A stretch of DNA of 20,642 nucleotides, from the IMG/VR virus record IMGVR_UViG_3300049489_000693, positions 1-20,642 of that record; one strand, written 5' to 3'. A program made the translations under genes and the position numbers. The first letter of the stretch is position 1. Every line of letters starts with the position of its first letter. This document shows, one piece after another, positions 1 to 20,642 of the stretch. The notes under the pieces are model-generated. The model was given only the letters and a program-made list of their open reading frames with translations. It searched no databases and was not told the origin of the DNA. Source of the stretch: a virus.

Positions 1-2007
1 GGCGTAGCCGGTGCCGCCGGGGCGGCAGGTGCCACAGGCGCGACCGGGGCAACGGGGCCCGCGGGTCCGGCCGGAGCAGACGGCGCACCTGGACCAGGTG
101 TCGAGACGGCGGACGTCCGGATCCACATCAATGGTTCGACGGGAAGCGACCTGACCGGGGACGGCAGCTCGGGCAACCCCGTGGCTACGATGGCCGGCGC
201 TGCTGCGCTGGCTCCGGAGGTGTCCACGGCAGCCGTGATCTACCAGTTTGACGGCGTAGGGAACTACGCCTGGGCTGAGTGCCCGACCGTGTTCGGGTCA
301 ACGGGACACTGGGCTCTGTATGCCCATGCAAGCACGCGAGTATCTGTGCTGGCGAGCGGGACAGCGGGCGTCGGGACAGACGCCAACGCAATTGCGGCTT
401 CGGGCCTGACCGTGAATCAATACCAGCACTTCACTCTGGAGATGACGTCAGGGGCAGCTCTCGGCTACCGGCGCACCGTGCAGCAGAACACAGCGACGTC
501 GATCGCCCCGGTGCGCCGATTTGAGAACCAGGCGGGCACCTCAGCCGTTACCCCAGCGTCGGGGGATACCTACGCGATCTACCGACCCGGCGTCGTGATC
601 ACAGGCCTCACGTCGCTCACGGGCAAGAGGGTGGTTTGGTGGGACATTGCTTTCGACACCGTCACGGCCTCTCCTCCGATCACGCACTGCGAGATCTACG
701 CCGCCGGGGTCGAGTTCCGTGGCACGGTCTTTCCCCATTTCCTCGACTGCCGTGGGTCGTTCGGCATGTGGGACCATATCGATTCAGGGTCCGTCCCGGT
801 CAACACGGCATTTACCCACTGGTCGCTGCCTAGCTCAACCGCACAGAGCACCAAGGTTGCAGCTTACTTTGCCTCAGTAGAGCAGAGCACGTCGATCGAC
901 ACCCTGGCCCTGCACCGGGGCTGCGGTGTCTCCTGCCCGAGTGTGGTCGCGACTGTGACCAGTACTACTGGCGGCCACATGCTGTTCACGCAGTGTGCAA
1001 TGTCGCTGCTCGGGGTGTTCGGGGCCGTCTCCCACGATCAGGGTGTCTACCTGATCGGGGGCTACTACTGGGGGAACTGTCGCGCGCACGCGCAGTCAAA
1101 CGTGGTAGTGACAGGCAAATGCGGGTCGGGCGTGAACGTTGCCGAGTCGACGTACTTCCGCAGGCGTATTGACCTGGACCGCAACAGTTCGATGTTCTGC
1201 GCGTCCCCGATCACCAGCATGCCGGGTGGATTTGCTTTCGTGAACGTGATCGACGGCTCTACCCTTACCTTCGCAGGTACGGGGAACGTCCTGGGGAATG
1301 GGACTGCAAACGATAACCTGGGCACGGTCGACCAGAACGGTACGGTCAACTTCACTGGGACAACGACCCTGGCTTTCAACGTGTCCCCGCAAAGCTACAA
1401 CAGCTTCGGCGGGTCCACGCTGTTCAACCATGGGCGCACCCGCTTCCTGGCAGCTACGACAATCACGAACGCAGGCAACCGGCCTTACTGGGTCCGAAAC
1501 GCGATAATGCTTGTGGACGCGGCTGTCACATATACCGGGGCGGGAGGTGTCCTGGTGTCGGACAACGGCATGGTCCGCTGCACCTCGACTCTGACCGTGA
1601 CGAACGGTCCGATCACCGTTGACGGCGGACACTTCACGATGGGCGCCAACGTGTCCGTGGTCACGCCGCCCGGCGACGCACTGATCGTCAAGAACGGCGG
1701 CAACTTCGTGCAGGCCGCTGGCATCCTGTCCTGTGTCGCGACGGCTGGCGACGGCCTATCCTGCGAGGCGGGCGGCAAGGCTCGCCTCCGGTCGAGTACG
1801 AACACCGTCCTAACCGGGGCAGGCGCCGGTAACGTCGGTTGCCGAGCAAAGGCGGGTGCCCAGGTCTGGTTCGACGGGGCTCCGACCTCTGTCACGGGCC
1901 CGGCGGATCTGCAGGTGGCAGGTACGACCTACCCGAACACGGACCTCTCCGCAGATCACACGTTCGTTACGGACGGGTCGGGCACCACGATCGGACGCGC
2001 GGCCTAG
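1..2007 (+). CDS. Tail or head fibre/spike protein, 5'-truncated (collagen-like tract plus predicted beta-helix)
   Basis: The reading frame is open from the first base, so the true start lies upstream; 668 residues are visible. Residues 1-33 are about 11 uninterrupted Gly-X-Y triplets rich in Ala, Thr and Pro, a collagen-like trimeric stalk common in phage fibres. Residues about 40-60 (HINGSTGSDLTGDGSSGNP then VATM) resemble the entry segment of pectin-lyase-fold tail spikes. The rest is rich in Gly, Thr, Val, Asn and short beta-strand-like repeats, most regular near residues 520-640, as expected of a right-handed beta-helix. No catalytic motif was recognised. It lies immediately upstream of the capsid genes rather than with the other fibre gene at 18370, so it could be a head fibre; a displaced tail fibre is the alternative. 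Its stop overlaps the stop of the convergent HNH gene. The fibre role is inferred from composition; the fine function is unknown. Confidence 0.75.
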   Translation, partial: GVAGAAGAAGATGATGATGPAGPAGADGAPGPGVETADVRIHINGSTGSDLTGDGSSGNPVATMAGAAALAPEVSTAAVIYQFDGVGNYAWAECPTVFGSTGHWALYAHASTRVSVLASGTAGVGTDANAIAASGLTVNQYQHFTLEMTSGAALGYRRTVQQNTATSIAPVRRFENQAGTSAVTPASGDTYAIYRPGVVITGLTSLTGKRVVWWDIAFDTVTASPPITHCEIYAAGVEFRGTVFPHFLDCRGSFGMWDHIDSGSVPVNTAFTHWSLPSSTAQSTKVAAYFASVEQSTSIDTLALHRGCGVSCPSVVATVTSTTGGHMLFTQCAMSLLGVFGAVSHDQGVYLIGGYYWGNCRAHAQSNVVVTGKCGSGVNVAESTYFRRRIDLDRNSSMFCASPITSMPGGFAFVNVIDGSTLTFAGTGNVLGNGTANDNLGTVDQNGTVNFTGTTTLAFNVSPQSYNSFGGSTLFNHGRTRFLAATTITNAGNRPYWVRNAIMLVDAAVTYTGAGGVLVSDNGMVRCTSTLTVTNGPITVDGGHFTMGANVSVVTPPGDALIVKNGGNFVQAAGILSCVATAGDGLSCEAGGKARLRSSTNTVLTGAGAGNVGCRAKAGAQVWFDGAPTSVTGPADLQVAGTTYPNTDLSADHTFVTDGSGTTIGRAA

Positions 2008-2351
2008 AACGGGACCCCGGGGCAGGCCCGTCTGCCCCGGTCCCATGCCTCCTGCAGATTCACGCTGGCGTTGCTGTCCTTGAGATGGCTGGGCCGCACA
2101 CACCGCGGATTGTCACACTCGTGCCCGACCAGCTCGGGGCAGCTCCCGGTTTCGAGAATCAGCACGGCCCTGTGTGCCAGCTCCACCCGACCCCAGAGCC
2201 AAAACTTGCCGTGCGGTAGCGGCTGGCCTCCGCCAGGGCGCCAGCGTCCGGGCCTTTTGACGGCCCCTGTCCACTCCCAGCAAGTCTCGGTGAACCGGAC
2301 TTTGCTCCAGAAACGCCAACGAAGTTTGTCGAGGGGGTTGCTTCGGTACAT
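2004..2351 (-). CDS. HNH homing endonuclease
   Basis: A 115-residue protein of the small free-standing phage HNH type (HNH_3-like). The N-terminus has CWEWTGA (24-30), followed by AHR (59-61) and then HECDNPRCVRPSHL (77-90), giving the His-Asn-His/Cys metal-finger pattern, and a later Asn (N98) before DRGR. These are the hallmark positions of HNH nucleases that nick or cut DNA and spread by homing. The frame is open for 36 more codons upstream, but I chose the ATG at 2351 because the family normally starts just before such a segment and because TACCTT lies 7 nt upstream of it (leaderless pattern). It is transcribed against the structural genes and sits between the fibre and protease genes. 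It overlaps the fibre stop by 4 bases. No intron is evident around it. Confidence 0.85.
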   Translation of the reverse strand: MYRSNPLDKLRWRFWSKVRFTETCWEWTGAVKRPGRWRPGGGQPLPHGKFWLWGRVELAHRAVLILETGSCPELVGHECDNPRCVRPSHLKDSNASVNLQEAWDRGRRACPGVPF

Positions 2352-2358
2352 GCCTGCC

Positions 2359-2364
2359 AAGGTA
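2359..2364 (-). promoter_or_regulatory. -10-like box for the HNH gene, leaderless arrangement
   Basis: Read on the minus strand, TACCTT ends 7 nt before the HNH ATG, and no good Shine-Dalgarno sequence precedes that ATG. The arrangement matches TANNNT boxes before several plus-strand genes in this window. No convincing -35 was seen. Promoter activity is inferred. Confidence 0.5.
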
Positions 2365-2395
2365 GCCAAGCCCCGGGCTGTCTGTACAGGGAAAA

Positions 2396-2405
2396 GTGCT
2401 AAGGT
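2396..2405 (+). promoter_or_regulatory. Extended -10 box for the head module
   Basis: GTGCTAAGGT contains an extended -10 pattern (TGC followed by TAAGGT) ending 7 nt before the protease ATG at 2413, so the predicted transcript would start at or next to the start codon. AAGG within the box could alternatively act as a weak Shine-Dalgarno. No -35 is visible. It forms a divergent pair with the HNH box in 2352-2412. Confidence 0.5.
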
Positions 2406-2412
2406 ATCGACG

Positions 2413-3441
2413 ATGGCACTTCGTTTTGATACCGGCACGGTCGGCAAGGTACAGCGCACCCCCCAGGGAGGCCTGCGCGTCGACGCGGCTCTGACCCGGA
2501 CGGGTGTGTTCGTCTACTTCGAAGGCGGACGCGAGATTCGGGAGTACCGCCCGCCTGATGAGGTGTTCAACGCTGACAGCCTGGCCACCCTGGCGGACGC
2601 CCCGGTCACTCTCGAGCACCCCCCGGGAGAGGTAACCCCGGAGAACTATCAAAAATACGCGGTCGGCCTGGTCTCGGGAGAAGCAAGGCAAGACGGCGAG
2701 CTCGTGACCGCCCGGCTAGTTGTCCAGGACGCCCGGACCCTGGCCGCGATCGAGGCAGGCACGCGCGAGGTCTCGTGCGGCTACCACTGCAAATTGGACA
2801 ACACGCCCGGGGTCTCCCCCGCCGGGGAGCCGTTTGACAGGGTGCAAAGATCGATACAATATAACCACGTAGCTATCGTGAAACGTGGTCGCGCGGGGTC
2901 TACCGTAGCACTCCGTTTAGACGCGGAGGGGAACCAAATCCCCTCGGAGGTATCAACAGTGACAGAACAAGAGATCGCGGCCCTGAGGGCCCAACTGGCC
3001 GAGAAGGACGCGCAGATCTCTGCGTTGACGGCACGTGCAGACGTGGCGGAGTCCCGTGCCTCTGACACCTCGGCCCTGGACGCGGCAGTCAATGCGCGCC
3101 TGGCCTTGATCGACAAGGCCCGCAAGTTCCTGGGCGCGGAGTTCAAGGCAGACGGCCTGAGCACCGAGCAGATCCAGGCCAAGGTCATCGCCAAGGTGCG
3201 ACCCACGCTGAAGCTGGACGGCCGTGACGCTGCCTACCTTGCGACGGCCTTCGAGCTCGTGCAGGACCTGGCCCCGGCCGAAGCCCCGCGCGCTGACAGC
3301 GCCGTAACCGAGGCGGCCAAGGCCGTGCTCGAGACCCCCGAACCCCGCAAGGACGCGGCAGACGATGCCAAGGCCAAGCACCAGGCGCGCGTCCGCGCAC
3401 TGGGCACCGCACCCCTCAGCCTCAGCAAGGACAGCAAGTAA
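2413..3441 (+). CDS. Prohead protease (DUF2213) fused to scaffold domain
   Basis: The 342-residue protein starts at the ATG at 2413. An open frame upstream is antisense to the HNH gene and has no family resemblance. Residues 1-170 match the phage DUF2213 family, placed with capsid maturation proteases by gene context. Visible landmarks are TLEHP (His69), REVSCGYHC (Ser121) and YNHVAIVKRGRAG (His152), which could form the His/Ser catalytic set; this assignment is inferred. Residues about 183-215 are a predicted coiled coil (heptad-like LRAQLAEKDAQISALTARAD), followed by an Ala-rich charged tail typical of scaffolds. The protein would cleave scaffold and capsid proteins during prohead maturation. 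It is followed directly by the cement and capsid genes (TAATG overlap). A separate start inside it probably makes free scaffold. Confidence 0.85.
   Translation: MALRFDTGTVGKVQRTPQGGLRVDAALTRTGVFVYFEGGREIREYRPPDEVFNADSLATLADAPVTLEHPPGEVTPENYQKYAVGLVSGEARQDGELVTARLVVQDARTLAAIEAGTREVSCGYHCKLDNTPGVSPAGEPFDRVQRSIQYNHVAIVKRGRAGSTVALRLDAEGNQIPSEVSTVTEQEIAALRAQLAEKDAQISALTARADVAESRASDTSALDAAVNARLALIDKARKFLGAEFKADGLSTEQIQAKVIAKVRPTLKLDGRDAAYLATAFELVQDLAPAEAPRADSAVTEAAKAVLETPEPRKDAADDAKAKHQARVRALGTAPLSLSKDSK
2959..3441 (+). CDS. Nested scaffold protein (internal in-frame start in the protease gene)
   Basis: A GTG at codon 183 of the protease gene is preceded by CGGAGG (2945-2950) with an 8-nt spacer, a better Shine-Dalgarno than the one for the full gene. 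It would yield a 160-residue protein beginning VTEQEIAALRAQL, which is the coiled-coil scaffold portion without the protease domain. Nested scaffolds made this way are known for lambda (Nu3 in C) and Mu-like phages. The start falls exactly at the domain boundary, after the last conserved protease motif, which supports it. Expression of the short form is inferred. Confidence 0.65.
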   Translation: MTEQEIAALRAQLAEKDAQISALTARADVAESRASDTSALDAAVNARLALIDKARKFLGAEFKADGLSTEQIQAKVIAKVRPTLKLDGRDAAYLATAFELVQDLAPAEAPRADSAVTEAAKAVLETPEPRKDAADDAKAKHQARVRALGTAPLSLSKDSK

Positions 3442-9264: not shown

Positions 9265-9383
9265 TCGACGCAGGGTTTGGTACCCTCACGGAGATCCGCT
9301 CGTCCTGGTCTCTCTACGACCTGGAGCAAGCGCACCTGATCCTTGACCTGCGAGCAGTGGCCAAGGCGAAGGATCAGGCGTGA
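8788..9383 (+). CDS. Tail assembly chaperone, -1 frameshift (GT-like) product
   Basis: Slipping back one base on T-TTT-TTA (9168-9174) joins the first 129 residues to a 69-residue extension in the -1 frame, ending at the TGA at 9381-9383 (198 residues). The extension includes DCIDWQLWRIVDAG, TLTEIRSSWSLYDLEQAHLI and LDLRA. It is a Trp-rich, helix-forming segment of the kind that links chaperone to tape measure and tail tube in GT proteins. No independent start for the extension is convincing: its only GTG (9144) has GGAGG abutting it. The last 10 bases overlap the end of the convergent minus-strand gene. Confidence 0.82.
9168..9203 (+). promoter_or_regulatory. Programmed -1 ribosomal frameshift signal (slippery heptamer and stem-loop)
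   Basis: The heptamer T-TTT-TTA (9168-9174) lies in the correct X-XXY-YYZ phase relative to the zero frame (GAT TTT TTA). After an 8-nt spacer a perfect 7-bp stem follows: GCTGAGC (9183-9189), loop GCCGCCG, GCTCAGC (9197-9203). Phase, spacing and hairpin all fit the classic -1 signal. Confidence 0.88.
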
Positions 9384-10459
9384 TCGACGGTCAGCACTCC
9401 TTCGCGCATCCAAGCACGTCGGACATCGCTGGGGATGTGTCGGGCCCGTTCCGGCAGAGCCTCCCGCAGAGCTGACGAGAAGTCCACGCCAACCGGCATG
9501 TCGAGCCAGCGCATGGTCTCGCCGTCTAGCAGGCGCCTGCGCAAACTGGCCGGGTCCGGATGCCGTCTCGGAGTGTCGGCCGAGTCGTAGGAGAAAACCA
9601 AGTTCCCGTTCGGGTGAAGCACTGCGCTAGCGATACTGTTCGGTACACCACGGCCGGGGAAAACCTCCCGGACAGCCTGGGTCAGGGTCACGCCCAGTGG
9701 CATGTCCATCCGGGTAAGGGTCTCTCCGGCCAGTAGGCGCCTGCGCAGGCCTGCGACCGAAGCCTGACCCAGCCCGATAGACGGGCAAAAGCGCAGGTAG
9801 TCCTCCTTCGGCGGATAGCCGGCAAGCTCCGCCACGCCCCGTCGGGCCGGCGACCAGTCAAAGTTGCGCTCTCTCGTCCAGGTGCGCTCGGGACCGGCCA
9901 GGCGGGTAAAAAACCCGAGCAGAGCTTTGACCGCCGGGGCCAGGTAATGCTTTCTTGACCACATGCCGAACGGGTCCAGAGAGGGTTTGCGCCTGGGCTC
10001 TGCCGGGATTCGCAGCTCTTTGACCTCCTTCCAGTCCACCTCCATGCCGTCCTTGCTGAACTTGATCTCCCGGGGGGTGGGGAGGTCCGAACTGGCCCCA
10101 ATCCAACCTACCCGTTCTGCTGCGCCGCGTAGAGCCTGTGCAGGGCCATACCCAGCCTTGTTCTGCTCTGCCAGCGTGCCTACAATGCGGTCAAGGTCGG
10201 CCAGGATGTCCTCTGACGGGACCCCCTTCCAGGACTTCTGGAAAGCCTCTTGGATCTCCTCCGCCGAAGGGGTTGCAAATCCCAGAGAGACCTCCACGTG
10301 AATGCCGCCGGGGATTCGCCGGTTTTTCTGGTGCTCCTCCACCCGAGCCACGCCCTGCGCGTGCAGGCGAGCACGGGCCGTCTCGACACACTTCGGGCAA
10401 GTCTCGCGATCCCCGTGGATCAGGTTGTGCGCCCCGCACTTTTTCAGGTCTGTCCGCAT
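9374..10459 (-). CDS. Unknown zinc-motif protein with C-terminal tandem repeat, inserted in the tail operon
   Basis: A 361-residue protein not recognised as any family. The N-terminus has C8-x2-H11-x9-C21-x2-C24, a likely zinc-binding finger of the kind found in many phage nuclease-like and DNA-binding proteins. The middle is charged, with WSRKHYLAPAVKALLGFFTRL (split at about 170-190). The C-terminus holds two copies of a roughly 58-residue unit (233-290 and 304-361), each with LRRRLL-x-GET, then DMP-x-GV, then A-x-RE. The copies share a 13-bp exact DNA match (9531-9543 and 9735-9747). The start ATG has an excellent Shine-Dalgarno (AGGAGG) and an upstream promoter-like signal, unlike its neighbours. 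It is convergent with the chaperone gene (10-base overlap) and divergent from the tape measure gene. A homing-type DNA-binding protein or a moron are possible; no nuclease core was seen. Confidence 0.8.
   Translation of the reverse strand: MRTDLKKCGAHNLIHGDRETCPKCVETARARLHAQGVARVEEHQKNRRIPGGIHVEVSLGFATPSAEEIQEAFQKSWKGVPSEDILADLDRIVGTLAEQNKAGYGPAQALRGAAERVGWIGASSDLPTPREIKFSKDGMEVDWKEVKELRIPAEPRRKPSLDPFGMWSRKHYLAPAVKALLGFFTRLAGPERTWTRERNFDWSPARRGVAELAGYPPKEDYLRFCPSIGLGQASVAGLRRRLLAGETLTRMDMPLGVTLTQAVREVFPGRGVPNSIASAVLHPNGNLVFSYDSADTPRRHPDPASLRRRLLDGETMRWLDMPVGVDFSSALREALPERARHIPSDVRRAWMREGVLTVDHA
9377..9763 (-). repeat. Two tandem protein-level repeat units in the minus-strand gene
   Basis: Residues 233-290 and 304-361 align through LRRRLLAGET/LRRRLLDGET, DMPLGV/DMPVGV and AVRE/ALRE, at an offset of 68 residues (204 bases). 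The plus-strand 13-mer AGGCGCCTGCGCA is identical in both copies. The units look like a duplicated helical module. Confidence 0.7.
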
Positions 10460-14707: not shown

Positions 14708-15118
14708 GTGGAGCGCGCCCTAGTCCTAGTAGCAGACGCGGAGAACCCCGACGTGGGCGATCTCCTGCTCGAGCACGGCAGGACGGTTCTAACCTCGGAC
14801 CTCGCGGAGGAAGTAGCGCAACGCCTGCGCGTGCGTTTCAATTTCTGGAAACAGGAATGGTTCAGGGACACCCGGCTCGGCACTCCCTACCTGGAGGCCA
14901 TCTTTGAGAAGGGTGTACCGGACGGTACGATCCGGTCTGTCTACACACAGATCATCCTGGGCACTGAGGGCGTGGCCAGCCTGGACGCGCTCTCCTGGAC
15001 GGTCAGTTCGACCCGTCAAATGGTTCTGACGTTCACGGCGCGTCTGCAGGACGGCAACACGTTCCGGTCAAGCCAGTATGGCCCCTTCATCGTGAGGCTA
15101 GATGCCAGCGGTACTTGA
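14708..15118 (+). CDS. Baseplate wedge protein (gp25/gpW-like)
   Basis: A 136-residue protein with the gp25-type core: SDLAEEVAQRLRVRFNFWKQ (30-49), EWFRDTRLGTPYLEAIFEKG (50-69), then a beta-rich C-terminus. Such proteins link the sheath to the baseplate wedge. It directly precedes the J-like gene, the expected order, and overlaps it by 17 bases. The GTG start follows TACCCT by 6 nt and lacks a Shine-Dalgarno. Confidence 0.8.
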   Translation: MERALVLVADAENPDVGDLLLEHGRTVLTSDLAEEVAQRLRVRFNFWKQEWFRDTRLGTPYLEAIFEKGVPDGTIRSVYTQIILGTEGVASLDALSWTVSSTRQMVLTFTARLQDGNTFRSSQYGPFIVRLDASGT

Positions 15119-16283
15119 TAGCACGGGCCTGACAGTCCCGGATCTCACCGAGATCAATGACGAGATTGTGGACGGCCTGCTCTCGGCCTTCCCCGGTCTC
15201 GATCTGACCGAGGAAAGCTACGACGGGCAGCTGATCGGGTCGTTCGCTGATCGGCTCGCTGCCTGTTACGAACTTCTGGCCGAGGTCTATGCGGGTTACG
15301 ACCCGAGCCAGGCCTCGGGGCACCAGCTGCACGCGATCTCCGCACGCACGGGCACGGTCGTAAAGCGAGCCACCAAGGGGTATCTAGTCTGCTCCCTTGA
15401 CCTGGACGCGGGTACCTATGCGATCGGGTCCCTGGTCGCCAACGTGGCAGACGAGCCGACCAAGCGGTATGAGAACCTGACCGAGGTCGTAAGCTCCGGG
15501 GGCGCCACGACTGTGACCCTCACGGCGCAGGCCGCTGGGCGCGTGGTCGTGTCGGCAGCGACGTTGACCGAGATCTCCGCGGCTGTGACGGGATGGAACA
15601 GTGTCACGAACGCGGCGAGCTCCGAGGCCTCGGGCAACAGCTCGGGCACGAACGCAGAGACCGATACCGAGCTACGACTCCGCCGGGCGGCAGAGTTGGC
15701 TCGCTCGGGCTCGAGCACGGCGGCAGCTATTCGGGCAGACCTCCTGGAAGTTACCGGGGTGGTCTCGGCCCTTGTCGTGGAGAACGACACAGACGCGACT
15801 GTCGACGGCATCCCGGCCCACTCTGTGGCCTGTTACGTCCGAGGCTCCGCGGCGGCGGCAGACATCCGAGCTCAGATCCTGGCAAGCAAGCCTGCAGGGA
15901 TCCAGGCTTTCGGATCGAGCACCGGCAACGTAACGGACGAGCAGGGCGAGACCCACTCGATCGGCTACACGGCCCCGAGCTCGGTGCGCACCTACTGTAA
16001 CGTGTCCGTGTCCGTGATTGCGGATACTTACGAGGGTGAGACCGCTTTGAAGGCCGCGCTAGTCGCGGTCGTGACCGGCGATACTGGCAAGGACGTGATC
16101 CGGAGTAAACTCCTGGCCGCTGCGTCGAACCTGGGCGGGGTCGTGGACGTCACGGCGTTGACGATCGATACCGTCGATCCTCCGGTCAGTACTTTGAACG
16201 TCACGATCACAAGCGGCCAGTATGCGTACCTGGATGCCGTCGACATCGATGTCACGGTGACCTACGTCACGGGGGCGCCATGA
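15102..16283 (+). CDS. Baseplate J-like wedge protein
   Basis: A 393-residue protein of the baseplate J family. Seen are an N-terminal helix region with FPGLDLTEESYDGQLIGSFA (about 30-49), a central AETDTELRLRRAAELARSGS (about 186-205) that is the family hallmark, LEVTGVVSALVVENDTD, and a GKDVIRSKLLAAASNLGGVV segment near the end. It forms the wedge ring that anchors fibres and triggers sheath contraction. The ATG lies in the end of the gp25-like gene (17-base overlap) with GAGG 4 nt upstream. The next gene starts in an ATGA overlap. Confidence 0.87.
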   Translation: MPAVLDSTGLTVPDLTEINDEIVDGLLSAFPGLDLTEESYDGQLIGSFADRLAACYELLAEVYAGYDPSQASGHQLHAISARTGTVVKRATKGYLVCSLDLDAGTYAIGSLVANVADEPTKRYENLTEVVSSGGATTVTLTAQAAGRVVVSAATLTEISAAVTGWNSVTNAASSEASGNSSGTNAETDTELRLRRAAELARSGSSTAAAIRADLLEVTGVVSALVVENDTDATVDGIPAHSVACYVRGSAAAADIRAQILASKPAGIQAFGSSTGNVTDEQGETHSIGYTAPSSVRTYCNVSVSVIADTYEGETALKAALVAVVTGDTGKDVIRSKLLAAASNLGGVVDVTALTIDTVDPPVSTLNVTITSGQYAYLDAVDIDVTVTYVTGAP

Positions 16284-17558: not shown

Positions 17559-18347
17559 GTGGCGGACTACTCCCCCAGATCCGTAACGCTAGATACTGAC
17601 CTAGGCTTGGTTGGCGGCGGCGACTCCTTCCCCCGTACACTCACGGTGGACGGCAACCCCTACACCGTATACTCGGCCAGCTACTCTGTGCGCGGGTGGG
17701 AGTATCACCCTGAGGTAAGCCTGACCGAGGCCCGAGGGATCGGCTCGGCCCTCACGGACGTGGACGGCAGCCCAGACGGGCAGATCCTCGATCACGCAGA
17801 TCAGGCCCTGGGCCGGCTGATCCTCTACTTCCAGAAGAAAGCGCGCATGGAGGCTTACCTCCGAGCCTGCCTCGCCCCGGTACAGACCCTGGAGAACTTG
17901 CTCTGGTCTGTCCTGGAGTTGCAGGACGCGGACCTAGACAATCTGGAAGGAGTGCACCTGGACAGGGAGGGGGCGATCATCGGAGAGGCCCGAGGCGATC
18001 GCACGGACGCGGAATACCGCCCGGCACTGCGCGCTCGCATCCTGATCAACCGGTCAGACGGCAAGCTCGGACAGCTCTACGAGATCCTGGAGCTCCTGAT
18101 CCCGGGAAACGCGGCCAAGATCTCAACCATGCATCCGGCCCACATCCTGGTCACTCTCGACACCGAGGGCGCCACGACCCAGGAGGAGGTAGCAAGGCTG
18201 CTACGTCAGGCCAAGCCTGCGGGCGTGCGGCTCGACGTCGGTTTCGGGGGCGGAACGATCGGGGATGTGGGCGGCAGCCCGGCGGGTGCTGTGATCGGGG
18301 ACGTAGGCGGCAGCCCGGCTGGTTTCCTCATTGGCGCGGTAGGGTAG
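17559..18347 (+). CDS. Tail protein I-like baseplate wedge protein (DUF2612-like) with N-terminal extension
   Basis: A 262-residue protein. Residues about 85-200 match the I-like/DUF2612 pattern: LENLLWSVLELQDADLDNLE, HLDREGAIIGEARGDRTDAE, YRPALRARILINRSDGKLGQ. About 80 residues at the N-terminus are extra and beta-rich (SYSVRGWEYHPEVSLTEARG). The C-terminus carries two and a half copies of a 12-residue Gly-rich unit (IGDVGGSPAG plus two residues). The GTG start follows the preceding stop directly, and no strong ribosome site is present. I-like proteins attach fibres to the wedge, consistent with the fibre gene next door. Confidence 0.78.
   Translation: MADYSPRSVTLDTDLGLVGGGDSFPRTLTVDGNPYTVYSASYSVRGWEYHPEVSLTEARGIGSALTDVDGSPDGQILDHADQALGRLILYFQKKARMEAYLRACLAPVQTLENLLWSVLELQDADLDNLEGVHLDREGAIIGEARGDRTDAEYRPALRARILINRSDGKLGQLYEILELLIPGNAAKISTMHPAHILVTLDTEGATTQEEVARLLRQAKPAGVRLDVGFGGGTIGDVGGSPAGAVIGDVGGSPAGFLIGAVG
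18258..18323 (+). repeat. Direct repeat encoding IGDVGGSPAG
   Basis: Two 30-base copies (18258-18287 and 18294-18323) match at 27 of 30 positions with a 36-base period. All three differences are synonymous. A partial third unit (IGAVG) ends the protein. Synonymous-only divergence suggests an older duplication under protein-level constraint. Confidence 0.85.
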
Positions 18348-18369: not shown

Positions 18370-19446
18370 ATGGCCAAACCTTCTACGCTACCCGAGTGGG
18401 CGTCTGACACCAACTTTTCGAGCGGCACGAAGTCCGGCACGGTCACCAAGCTTGAGCCCGCGCTCGCGTACAAGAAGCAAGGCTGGGTACCGTCCCTGCA
18501 ATGGTTCGGGCAGTACGCCAATTGGTTGCTGAACCTGGTCTACCAGTGGTGCGCTTACCTGGACAACCTGCACGGGGAGGCGGATTTCCTGAACAAGGCC
18601 TACGCATGGGTAGGCTCGCATTCGTTTACCCCTGCCACGGCTACGGCAGCGGGTCTGACCTCCACGGGAAACACCTCGGGTGCGGGTATCGTCGCCACGG
18701 GCGGCACGTCCGGCCGAGGTGCAACGTTTGCGGCAGGGGGAGGTAATAACTACGGCGCACACTGCACGGGCTCTGGCACGTTCTCCGGTGTGCACGGTGT
18801 GGGCGGCGCTACGGGTGCGGGTGTCACCGGAACGGGCGGCGCCAGTGGCGGTATCGGGGTCTTCGGCCAGGGTACGACCAATTCGGCGGGCGTGTCTGGA
18901 ATCGGCAACGGCACTGCCATGGGCGTCTACGGCCAAGGCGGCAACACAGACGGGATTGGCGTGTACGGGCTCGGGCAGGGGGCGGGTGCGGGCGGCTATT
19001 TCCAAGGCGGCGCCAGCAACGGCAAGGGTATCGTGGTTATCGGAGACGGATCGGCCCTTGGGATCGAGGTCGATGCCGACACGAACTATGCGATCGAGGC
19101 CACTTCGACGGCGAGCGCAATCAACGCTGTTTCGACGGGCAGCGGAGGTGGCAACTATGGCGTGCTTGGCTCCGGGTACACTGGCAACGGCAACGGTGTG
19201 GTGGGCCAAGGCCAGGGCACAGGCGCAGGCGGGAGGTTCCGCGCGCCTACGGACGGGGCAGGCCCTGCGATCACGCTGGTCACAGACACGACAGGCGCAG
19301 TAGGTCCGCACATCCGCATGAACGATCTAGGCTCCGCCACAGTATCTGTCTCTGACGGGGATATCTGGTTCTCAAACGGAGAGCTCCAGATTCGATCAGG
19401 CGGCGTGACCTACAGCTTTACTTCCAGTGGTTTGACGTACGCATAA
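18370..19446 (+). CDS. Tail fibre protein with Gly-rich repeat shaft
   Basis: A 358-residue protein. The N-terminal 85 residues (LPEWASDTNFSSGTKSGTVT, then WFGQYANWLLNLVYQWCAYL) resemble the baseplate-attachment domain of many phage tail fibres. From about 95 to 275 there is a repetitive shaft with recurring GV-x-G-x-G and GVYG-x-G units (for example GVFGQG, GVYGQG, GVYGLG, GVVGQG), as in short fibre or beta-helix stalks. The C-terminal 70 residues form a small beta-rich end with VSDGDIWFSNGELQIRSGGV. No chaperone domain or enzyme motif was seen. It follows the I-like attachment protein, consistent with being the receptor-binding fibre. Confidence 0.8.
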   Translation: MAKPSTLPEWASDTNFSSGTKSGTVTKLEPALAYKKQGWVPSLQWFGQYANWLLNLVYQWCAYLDNLHGEADFLNKAYAWVGSHSFTPATATAAGLTSTGNTSGAGIVATGGTSGRGATFAAGGGNNYGAHCTGSGTFSGVHGVGGATGAGVTGTGGASGGIGVFGQGTTNSAGVSGIGNGTAMGVYGQGGNTDGIGVYGLGQGAGAGGYFQGGASNGKGIVVIGDGSALGIEVDADTNYAIEATSTASAINAVSTGSGGGNYGVLGSGYTGNGNGVVGQGQGTGAGGRFRAPTDGAGPAITLVTDTTGAVGPHIRMNDLGSATVSVSDGDIWFSNGELQIRSGGVTYSFTSSGLTYA

Positions 19447-19455
19447 GGAGTTCTC

Positions 19456-19599
19456 GTGAACAAAGCTAAGATTTTCGCAGCCTGTATCGCCGCCGCTCTG
19501 GCAGCGGTGGGCGTTCTGTTCCCTGAGTTCAAAGAGGCCGCCGCGCTGATCGCAGGGCTGGCCATGGGTAAGGAATTCTTCCCCCAGGCCGACAAGTGA
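19456..19599 (+). CDS. Small membrane protein, possible holin
   Basis: A 47-residue ORF beginning with GTG at 19456, preceded by AAGGAG (19445-19450) with a 5-nt spacer, a strong ribosome site. It starts MNKAKIFAACIAAALAAVGV, a basic start followed by one hydrophobic stretch (residues about 6-22), then FPEFKE and a second stretch (AAALIAGLAMG, about 28-38). This is compatible with a two-segment holin-like protein, but Ala-rich short segments make membrane insertion uncertain. It opens the lysis-type cluster after the fibre gene and overlaps the next ORF by 4 bases (GTGA). Confidence 0.6.
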   Translation: MNKAKIFAACIAAALAAVGVLFPEFKEAAALIAGLAMGKEFFPQADK

Positions 19600-19733
19600 T
19601 CACCGGCATCGTGATAGCAGCCCTGGGCCTCGGCAGCGCGATCGCAGGTCTCTGGAAAACCAAGCGCGCACGGAGGGCTGCGAAGGCCCTTGATCTGGCG
19701 TCACGGGCAGCACAAGCACTCCCCAGGAAGTAG
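19596..19733 (+). CDS. Small single-pass membrane protein, unknown function
   Basis: A 45-residue ORF starting with GTG in a GTGA overlap with the preceding gene. It begins MITGIVIAALGLGSAIAGLW (residues 1-20, one membrane segment), followed by a strongly basic tail with KTKRARRAAK and ending LPRK. A short membrane segment with a basic cytoplasmic tail is common among small phage lysis or anti-lysis proteins. No family is recognised. It lies 6 nt before the metzincin gene. Confidence 0.55.
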   Translation: MITGIVIAALGLGSAIAGLWKTKRARRAAKALDLASRAAQALPRK

Positions 19734-19739
19734 GACAGC

Positions 19740-20366
19740 ATGGCCACAGTGCCCGAGCGGTTGGCGAGCATTGAAGCGCACCTAGCACACGTCCGAAAGG
19801 ACTTGGGCGAGATCAAGAGCCAGGGAACCAGGATCGGCTCGCTCGAGCGCTGGCGGGCTTACATCACCGGAGGCCTAGTCCTGGTCTCTGTCCTGCTCGG
19901 CCTGCTGCACCTCGGAGGCTGTGCCGCGGCGCCGATCGTCCCCGAGGCCAAGCCCTTCGCCACCCGGCCCATGCGTGTCCTGTACGATTCGAGCATGGAC
20001 GCAGAGTGCCAGGAATCTGTCTGGTTCGCTGCGCTGTTCTGGTCGCTGCACGGGGTGGATTACCTGACCGTAGAGCCGGCCCACCCCAGCTCCGCCCCGG
20101 CATTGGGTCTCCCTCGCGAGGGGGAGGTAGGCATTCACCAGGGACCGCTCAGTCCGAACCGGCTCGGTGAAACGTGGTCGTGGGGTCGGAGCAGGACGAA
20201 CGCGGCAGATATCACACTGGCCGTCTGTGACAACTGGGTCACCACACACGAGCTCGGGCACGCTCTCGGTCTGCCTCACGTGGCGGGCGAAGGCTCGGTG
20301 ATGTCCGTGGCCTTCGAGATAGGCGGGTGGGCTGTCAGCCCGAGGGAGTTGCAATGGTTACGGTAG
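19740..20366 (+). CDS. Membrane-anchored metzincin metalloprotease with holin-like (XhlA-type) N-terminus
   Basis: A 208-residue protein. Residues 1-38 form an amphipathic coiled-coil region (ERLASIEAHLAHVRKDLGEI), followed by a membrane segment at about 41-58, together resembling small XhlA-like holin proteins. The segment ends LGGC (58-61), a possible but imperfect lipobox. The rest is a small protease domain with HELGHALGLPH (170-180): zinc ligands His170, His174 and His180, catalytic Glu171, and a Met-turn SVM (Met188), the full metzincin/matrixin signature. It therefore should be an active zinc endopeptidase held at the membrane with its domain outside the cytoplasm. It sits between two tiny membrane proteins and an unknown ORF, in the lysis region. 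Substrate and role (envelope protein cleavage, lysis, or host takeover) are unknown. A separate lipoprotein starting at an internal CTG after GGAGG is possible but unlikely. Confidence 0.8.
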   Translation: MATVPERLASIEAHLAHVRKDLGEIKSQGTRIGSLERWRAYITGGLVLVSVLLGLLHLGGCAAAPIVPEAKPFATRPMRVLYDSSMDAECQESVWFAALFWSLHGVDYLTVEPAHPSSAPALGLPREGEVGIHQGPLSPNRLGETWSWGRSRTNAADITLAVCDNWVTTHELGHALGLPHVAGEGSVMSVAFEIGGWAVSPRELQWLR

Positions 20367-20642
20367 GCATGCGAGGGTTCGTCTGCCGCCCCGCCTTCGA
20401 TACGCTAGGCAAGCGCGACACCTCCGGGGCTTTCGCGCCCGAGGCTGCCCGCTTCATAAAGGCAACCGGGATCCACGCGAGTCAGCGGATCTTCGACAAT
20501 AACCAGGCCATGCCTGATCGCAGGCGGGAAGTGTCGATCGCGCTTGATCGCTGCTCGGGCCTCGATCTGCAGGTCGTGGCGTTCTTCTGCCACGGCTACC
20601 GGACGGGAATCCAGGCGGGCTACACGGCGCAGACCGTGGGTA
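20354..20642 (+). CDS. Unknown protein, 3'-truncated by the window edge
   Basis: The frame is open from the ATG at 20354 to the window end (96 codons visible). GGAG (20345-20348) lies 5 nt upstream, and the start overlaps the metzincin gene by 13 bases, indicating coupling. The visible part begins MVTVGMRGFVCRPAFDTLGK, then APEAARFIKATG, and includes LDLQVVAFFCHGYRTGIQAG (about 74-93). The hydrophobic strand ending in FFCHG is like the His-Gly step of clan CD (caspase/CHAT-type) peptidases, but I do not claim the family, as the catalytic Cys region lies outside the window. An endolysin or a peptidase would be plausible at this place. No signal peptide or membrane segment is visible. Confidence 0.65.
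   Translation, partial: MVTVGMRGFVCRPAFDTLGKRDTSGAFAPEAARFIKATGIHASQRIFDNNQAMPDRRREVSIALDRCSGLDLQVVAFFCHGYRTGIQAGYTAQTVG

Follow-up and report, generated by a model that had tools for sequence, protein, structure and literature searches.

A single gene, lying 3′ of the tail genes of a contractile-tailed phage, joins a holin-like membrane anchor to a protease of the matrixin family. As far as the sequence can tell, the fusion of the two halves is genuine, the active site is intact, the predicted fold is that of a metzincin and the genomic slot of the gene is conserved. We think that its product is probably a component of the lysis cassette: a module made of a coiled coil and a transmembrane (TM) segment, as in holin-type proteins, would carry an active metalloprotease that cuts envelope proteins from the periplasmic side, thereby aiding rupture.

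The window and its genes

The window, by which we mean the whole stretch of DNA analysed, is the IMG/VR virus record IMGVR_UViG_3300049489_000693, with its 20,642 bases. Its tail module is that of a phage with a contractile tail and includes genes for sheath (phrog_205, E = 7e-67), tape measure, baseplate wedge, a DUF2612 baseplate-type protein and the tail fibre. Downstream of the fibre gene come, in this order, ORFs of 47 and 45 residues, the fusion ORF of 208 residues and the start of an overlapping gene:

15102..16283, plus strand: baseplate wedge (J-like) gene (phrog_6, E = 1.4e-42)
17559..18347, plus strand: baseplate-type gene (Pfam DUF2612, 24.1 bits; phrog_6277, 3e-20; phrog_1160 baseplate, 2e-10)
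18370..19446, plus strand: tail-fibre gene, its N-terminus homologous across all five orthologous loci (tblastn, 38-50% identity, E 1e-14 to 1e-24)
19456..19599, plus strand: hydrophobic 47-aa ORF, a holin-like candidate (weak PHROG holin match, E = 0.73; SD-like AAGGAG upstream)
19596..19733, plus strand: 45-aa ORF with a single hydrophobic segment, overlapping the 47-aa ORF
19740..20366, plus strand: coiled-coil/TM anchor and metzincin protease, 208 aa, in one gene (open frame; Pfam Matrixin; three further fused orthologues)
20354..20641, plus strand: next gene, truncated at the end of the contig after 96 N-terminal residues; it starts at an ATG within the protease gene, with an overlap of 13 bp, and occupies a slot held by an endolysin gene in three orthologous loci

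The 45-aa ORF has no convincing family match in Pfam or PHROG. Two ORFs run opposite to the tail genes: one (2004-2459, minus strand) has GHECDNPRCVRPSHL and is HNH endonuclease-like, the other (9374-10459, minus strand) encodes 361 residues inside the tail operon.

A fusion protein in one frame

The initial annotation had located the fusion ORF at 19740-20366, and there it stands: it runs in one frame from an ATG at 19740 to a stop codon at 20364-20366 with no internal stop, AGGA is found upstream, and its codon-position GC (0.66/0.51/0.79) is similar to that of the adjoining tail genes. The two-part layout then described is visible both in this single open frame and in an AlphaFold2 model of the protein, where helices 4-28 and 32-59 are followed by a mixed alpha/beta protease core (mean pLDDT 79.5 overall, about 90-96 in the best blocks of the core). 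PHROG gave no match to the 208-aa protein, and tblastn against named phages at E 1 gave no homologue. Its parts are as follows:

19740..19916, plus strand: holin-like anchor module, residues 1-59, with a long helix, an R-[IV]-x-x-L-E motif and a TM segment at about 39-59 (homology to a stand-alone protein of viral contig L002; model helices; hydrophobic residues 39-64)
19920..19922, plus strand: Cys61, lipobox-like, just after the TM segment; conserved in 5/5 loci, formal lipobox pattern failed
19968..20363, plus strand: metzincin catalytic domain, residues about 77-208 (model core; Foldseek; family profile against MMP-1)
20007..20009, plus strand: Cys90, possible disulfide partner of Cys163; conserved in 5/5
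20226..20228, plus strand: Cys163, possible disulfide partner of Cys90; conserved in 5/5
20247..20279, plus strand: zinc-binding signature HELGHALGLPH, residues 170-180, with zinc residues that do not vary across an alignment of 22 phage-contig metzincins
20301..20303, plus strand: Met188, the Met-turn methionine, invariant in the same alignment

The protease half

Three hallmarks of a metzincin (clan MA(M)) are found, namely the HExxHxxGxxH/D signature, the methionine of the Met-turn and, in the model, the metzincin fold. The pattern HExxHxxGxxH...M is present once in the six frames of the window and turned up a single time in a total of 300 shuffled windows; with about 0.003 expected per window, the zinc signature is not a chance occurrence. 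H170, E171, G173, H174, G177, H180 and M188 are invariant in the alignment of 22 phage-contig metzincins. Pfam Matrixin (PF00413) is matched with 26.7 bits against a curated cut-off of 24, over residues 164-193 only; a profile built from the 22 relatives matches MMP-1 (E = 1e-11) and other MMPs as well. Foldseek, run with the model, relates it to karilysin, MMP-7 and MMP-16 with probability 1.00 (E 5e-4 to 7e-4), at modest TM-scores of about 0.4 across the whole model, anchor helices included. The protease half is thus, on its sequence and model, an intact matrixin-type metzincin, predicted to be active. This is what had been claimed from the zinc signature and the Met-turn, and the structural comparison then proposed agrees with it; every close homologue retains the zinc ligands, and the domain is not degenerate.

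Matrixins and MMP-like enzymes (karilysin, MMPs; MEROPS M10) have the zinc signature, the Met-turn and the fold in common with the window protease. Unlike them, it has neither pro-domain nor cysteine switch, comprises about 130 residues and sits on an anchor that is a phage module.

The anchor half

XhlA-type proteins of lysis cassettes are small and have a coiled coil at the N-terminus and a TM segment after it. Residues 1-62 of the window protein have this layout, as do two stand-alone proteins, those of L002 and L187 (below). With the 72-aa protein of L002 the window segment shares 41% identity (shuffle z = 14.6, coil and TM parts shuffled separately), showing that the anchor half is a module that exists by itself. 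Downstream of its anchor gene, L002 has two small ORFs and then a 202-aa ORF that looks NlpC/YiiX-like by eye and has no Pfam match. The earlier comparison of the anchor with XhlA survives as far as this holin-like arrangement goes, but not as family membership: none of the five anchor modules reaches the cut-off of Pfam XhlA (PF10779), the best E being 0.24, in one of the five, and we rejected the anchor as a member. It also differs from XhlA in being fused to a protease, which XhlA lacks. We therefore call the anchor half no more than holin-like, by its predicted layout.

Orthologues and the conserved slot

Related loci, designated by L-numbers, were found by a motif scan of viral contigs and then by two wider searches. 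The scan gave L016, a fused protein of 233 aa and identical layout (31% identity over 226 residues, E = 2e-17). The wider searches added a 256-aa fused protein in one lineage (L136/L163/L183/L184) and a 233-aa one (L186:7998-8699) in which the third zinc ligand is Asp (HEIGHALGLDD), an accepted variant among metzincins. Phage proteins with the two-part layout that the initial annotation suggested looking for are thus present in three further lineages (L016, L136/L184 and L186), at about 30-36% identity, their catalytic residues preserved. A search at the DNA level for the C-terminal pattern GGWxVS...WLR recovered L016 again together with two chance matches, L054 and L055, which we discarded. 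Bacterial genomes scanned with a stricter motif gave seven matches, six long proteins and one of 236 aa, none with the fusion layout.

Every fused gene lies directly 3′ of a fibre gene whose N-terminus is homologous to that of the window fibre, with baseplate genes before it; this N-terminus, shared by all five loci, anchors the synteny. L187, on the same contig as L066, keeps the two halves in the same slot as separate adjacent genes, in the order fibre, coil/TM protein of 86 aa, lipoprotein-like metzincin of 176 aa with its own SD, and M15 endolysin. The coil encoded in L187 is similar to the N-terminal part of the fused L186 protein (shuffle z = 5.9, 0/1000). Each of the five slot proteins scores above the Matrixin cut-off, and the protease parts resemble one another outside the zinc motif too (shuffle z 2.8-15.2). 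That the same slot holds the fused form in some loci and the split form in another speaks for cooperation between the two halves.

In 5/5 loci the gene that follows begins before the protease stop, with an overlap of 4-13 bp. It encodes an Amidase_2 protein in L186 (E = 2e-17), an M15_4 protein above cut-off in L187, and in L136 a match to the phrog_465 endolysin (E = 2e-5) with a weak Pfam M15 match. The protease gene is therefore beside an endolysin gene in L136, L186 and L187, and these neighbours, being of two kinds, make an association with lysis the best reading for the protein group. For L016 and for the window, whose copy comprises the N-terminal 96 aa, the next protein belongs to no recognised family and has no endolysin match, so that in the window endolysin adjacency follows by synteny only; a structure model of the L016 protein (pLDDT 47) was unusable. 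The lysis region announced for the window is in this way borne out from its orthologues. As a separate observation, the window ORF at 20354-20641, with VVAFFCHGYRTG, and an ORF elsewhere (L087:821-1486, with LVICCHGG...LAACWCGG) both bear by eye a likeness to caspase-type His/Cys motifs, with no family match.

Neighbouring tail genes invite two other readings. The protease might alter a surface receptor of the host, in superinfection exclusion or lysogenic conversion, with no role in lysis; the gene does adjoin a tail fibre, and exclusion proteins use lipoprotein-type anchors. We find this improbable: in three lineages the gene overlaps an endolysin gene and is presumably translated together with it, and the split version is placed between a holin-like gene and an endolysin. 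Still further down comes a protease of the virion or of tail assembly, which the position directly 3′ of the tail genes would fit; an N-terminal membrane segment, its homology to a stand-alone coil/TM protein and the placement of the orthologues before endolysins make it very improbable.

Cysteines and topology

Three cysteines are conserved in 5/5 proteins: after the TM segment, in the region of the first helix of the protease, and just before HExxH. A possible lipobox had been seen at the junction. Its cysteine, Cys61, is indeed kept throughout and three of the five proteins (L016, L184 and L186) pass the SPII pattern, but L187 fails it and so does the window's own LLHLGGC, because of its His at -4. 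The other two, Cys90 and Cys163, may be joined by a disulfide bond, as would suit a protease domain located in the periplasm.

We count one hydrophobic segment in the window protein, whereas L016, L136 and L186 seem by eye to have two ahead of the Cys, not cleanly separated in a simple hydropathy scan. If both were inserted and the N-terminus were inside, the protease would be cytoplasmic in these three. A separate internal start would resolve this conflict; Met codons in frame are candidates for producing a separate lipoprotein in L136 and L186, with no clear SD by eye, and we do not claim it.

An anchor of this kind brings spanins to mind. In phages without Rz/Rz1 the anchored protease might, as a third lysis component, remove the outer-membrane barrier by cutting proteins of the outer membrane or proteins that tether peptidoglycan. 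The slot adjoins an endolysin, the protein has a membrane anchor with a lipobox-like Cys, and a search of the five records for Rz-type spanins (PF03245) gave no match. Against this, the five records may be incomplete, spanins diverge too far for profiles to find them, and the host may not be diderm; we regard the substitution as possible yet unlikely. A search with phrog_739 spanins was uninformative because it matched all 14 controls as well. Spanins (Rz/Rz1, u-spanins; PMC6139136) are likewise membrane-anchored or lipoprotein components encoded among lysis genes, but they are not proteases.

Known systems and other phage metzincins

The initial annotation knew of no established family with such a fusion. 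We too found, in the open-access literature, no description of a metzincin fused to a holin-like anchor, of its lipobox relatives or of its placement before an endolysin; phage metzincins that aid lysis, by contrast, do have a precedent. A secreted metzincin of phage origin, Mtz, sensitises Listeria to phage lysis together with the lipoprotein Tim, the enhancement needs catalytic activity, and the pair is often found downstream of holin-lysin in prophages (Boichis et al. 2021; PMC8235301). Compared by description rather than by sequence, Mtz and the fusion protein are both small phage-linked metzincins near lysis genes. Mtz differs in its SPI signal peptide, its secretion, its TIMP-like lipoprotein partner and its Gram-positive host, and a coiled-coil/TM fusion has not been reported for it.

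By analogy with Mtz, which is thought to cut Tim (PMC8235301), the window protease might process a holin, an antiholin or a lipoprotein so as to time or sharpen lysis. The holin-like anchor would put it at the right membrane, and two small hydrophobic ORFs lie just upstream in the window. This partner processing is nevertheless doubtful, since reading the neighbourhoods of L184, L186 and L187 revealed no TIMP-like partner gene, and in L136 and L186 the stretch from fibre to endolysin contains no additional holin-like ORF.

A Mycobacterium abscessus prophage (L190, Mycobacterium phage prophiGD12-2, record 43630-50140) has an annotated pair of metallopeptidase and metalloproteinase inhibitor near LysA/LysB/holin, which lie on the opposite strand; the arrangement recalls Mtz-Tim in an actinobacterial setting. 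With Listeria Mtz, it gives lysis-linked phage metzincins a precedent. We rejected the idea that small phage metzincins as a whole are linked to lysis genes, since many of them adjoin none that is recognised.

The searches brought up other metzincins, in a set that includes some contigs that look bacterial, such as L108. Most of the 49 loci of the motif scan (L005-L052, e.g. L007:3355-4173) encode a protein of about 270 aa combining PG_binding_1, the cysteine-switch-like R(P/R)CGLPDF and a full matrixin domain. It aligns with human pro-MMPs, among them MMP-9 with its pro-region (E = 8e-18), and has the look of an MMP zymogen encoded by a virus, complete with an animal-type latency switch. Several of the source contigs measure about 200 kb. 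In L151:1-1577 (minus strand) a TM-anchored metzincin has on one side an M23 endopeptidase, which exceeds its Pfam cut-off, and on the other a TM/coiled-coil-like ORF; this may be an independent lysis cassette built on the same principle. L087:1635-2412 and L175:9204-9960 each encode a small metzincin of lipoprotein type, with a TM and coiled-coil-like ORF behind it and no recognised endolysin adjoining. Finally, a family of TM-anchored metzincins is paired with a lipoprotein gene in L098, L108, L143, L153 and L165; these contigs are listed as viral, but some carry bacterial-looking genes (DnaK in L108) and may be mis-sorted.

Proposed role

Returning to the lysis-cassette component that we favour, the protein would be made late, co-translated with the next gene, an endolysin gene in three orthologous loci. 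Its N-terminal helix and TM segment would hold it in the inner membrane; in the longer relatives, the lipobox might instead allow lipidation after export. The protease domain would face the periplasm, presumably stabilised by the conserved cysteine pair, and as lysis begins it would cut envelope proteins, perhaps those tying peptidoglycan to the outer membrane or to a surface layer, or perhaps another lysis protein. Proteolysis may then let the action of the endolysin reach full rupture. A bolder idea, and an unlikely one, is that a class of tailed phages breaks the outermost layer of the envelope with an anchored metzincin fused to a holin-like module, used as third lysis enzyme instead of spanins.

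The standard account of phage lysis calls for a holin, a peptidoglycan hydrolase and, in diderms, a spanin. With a conserved and catalytically intact protease in their cassettes, fused in some and split in another, several diverged phages would extend this account by a step of proteolysis. Anchored phage metzincins make Listeria Mtz, the sole tested precedent that we found, look like part of something broader, and the fusion offers a compact, testable enzyme that may strip proteins from the envelope.
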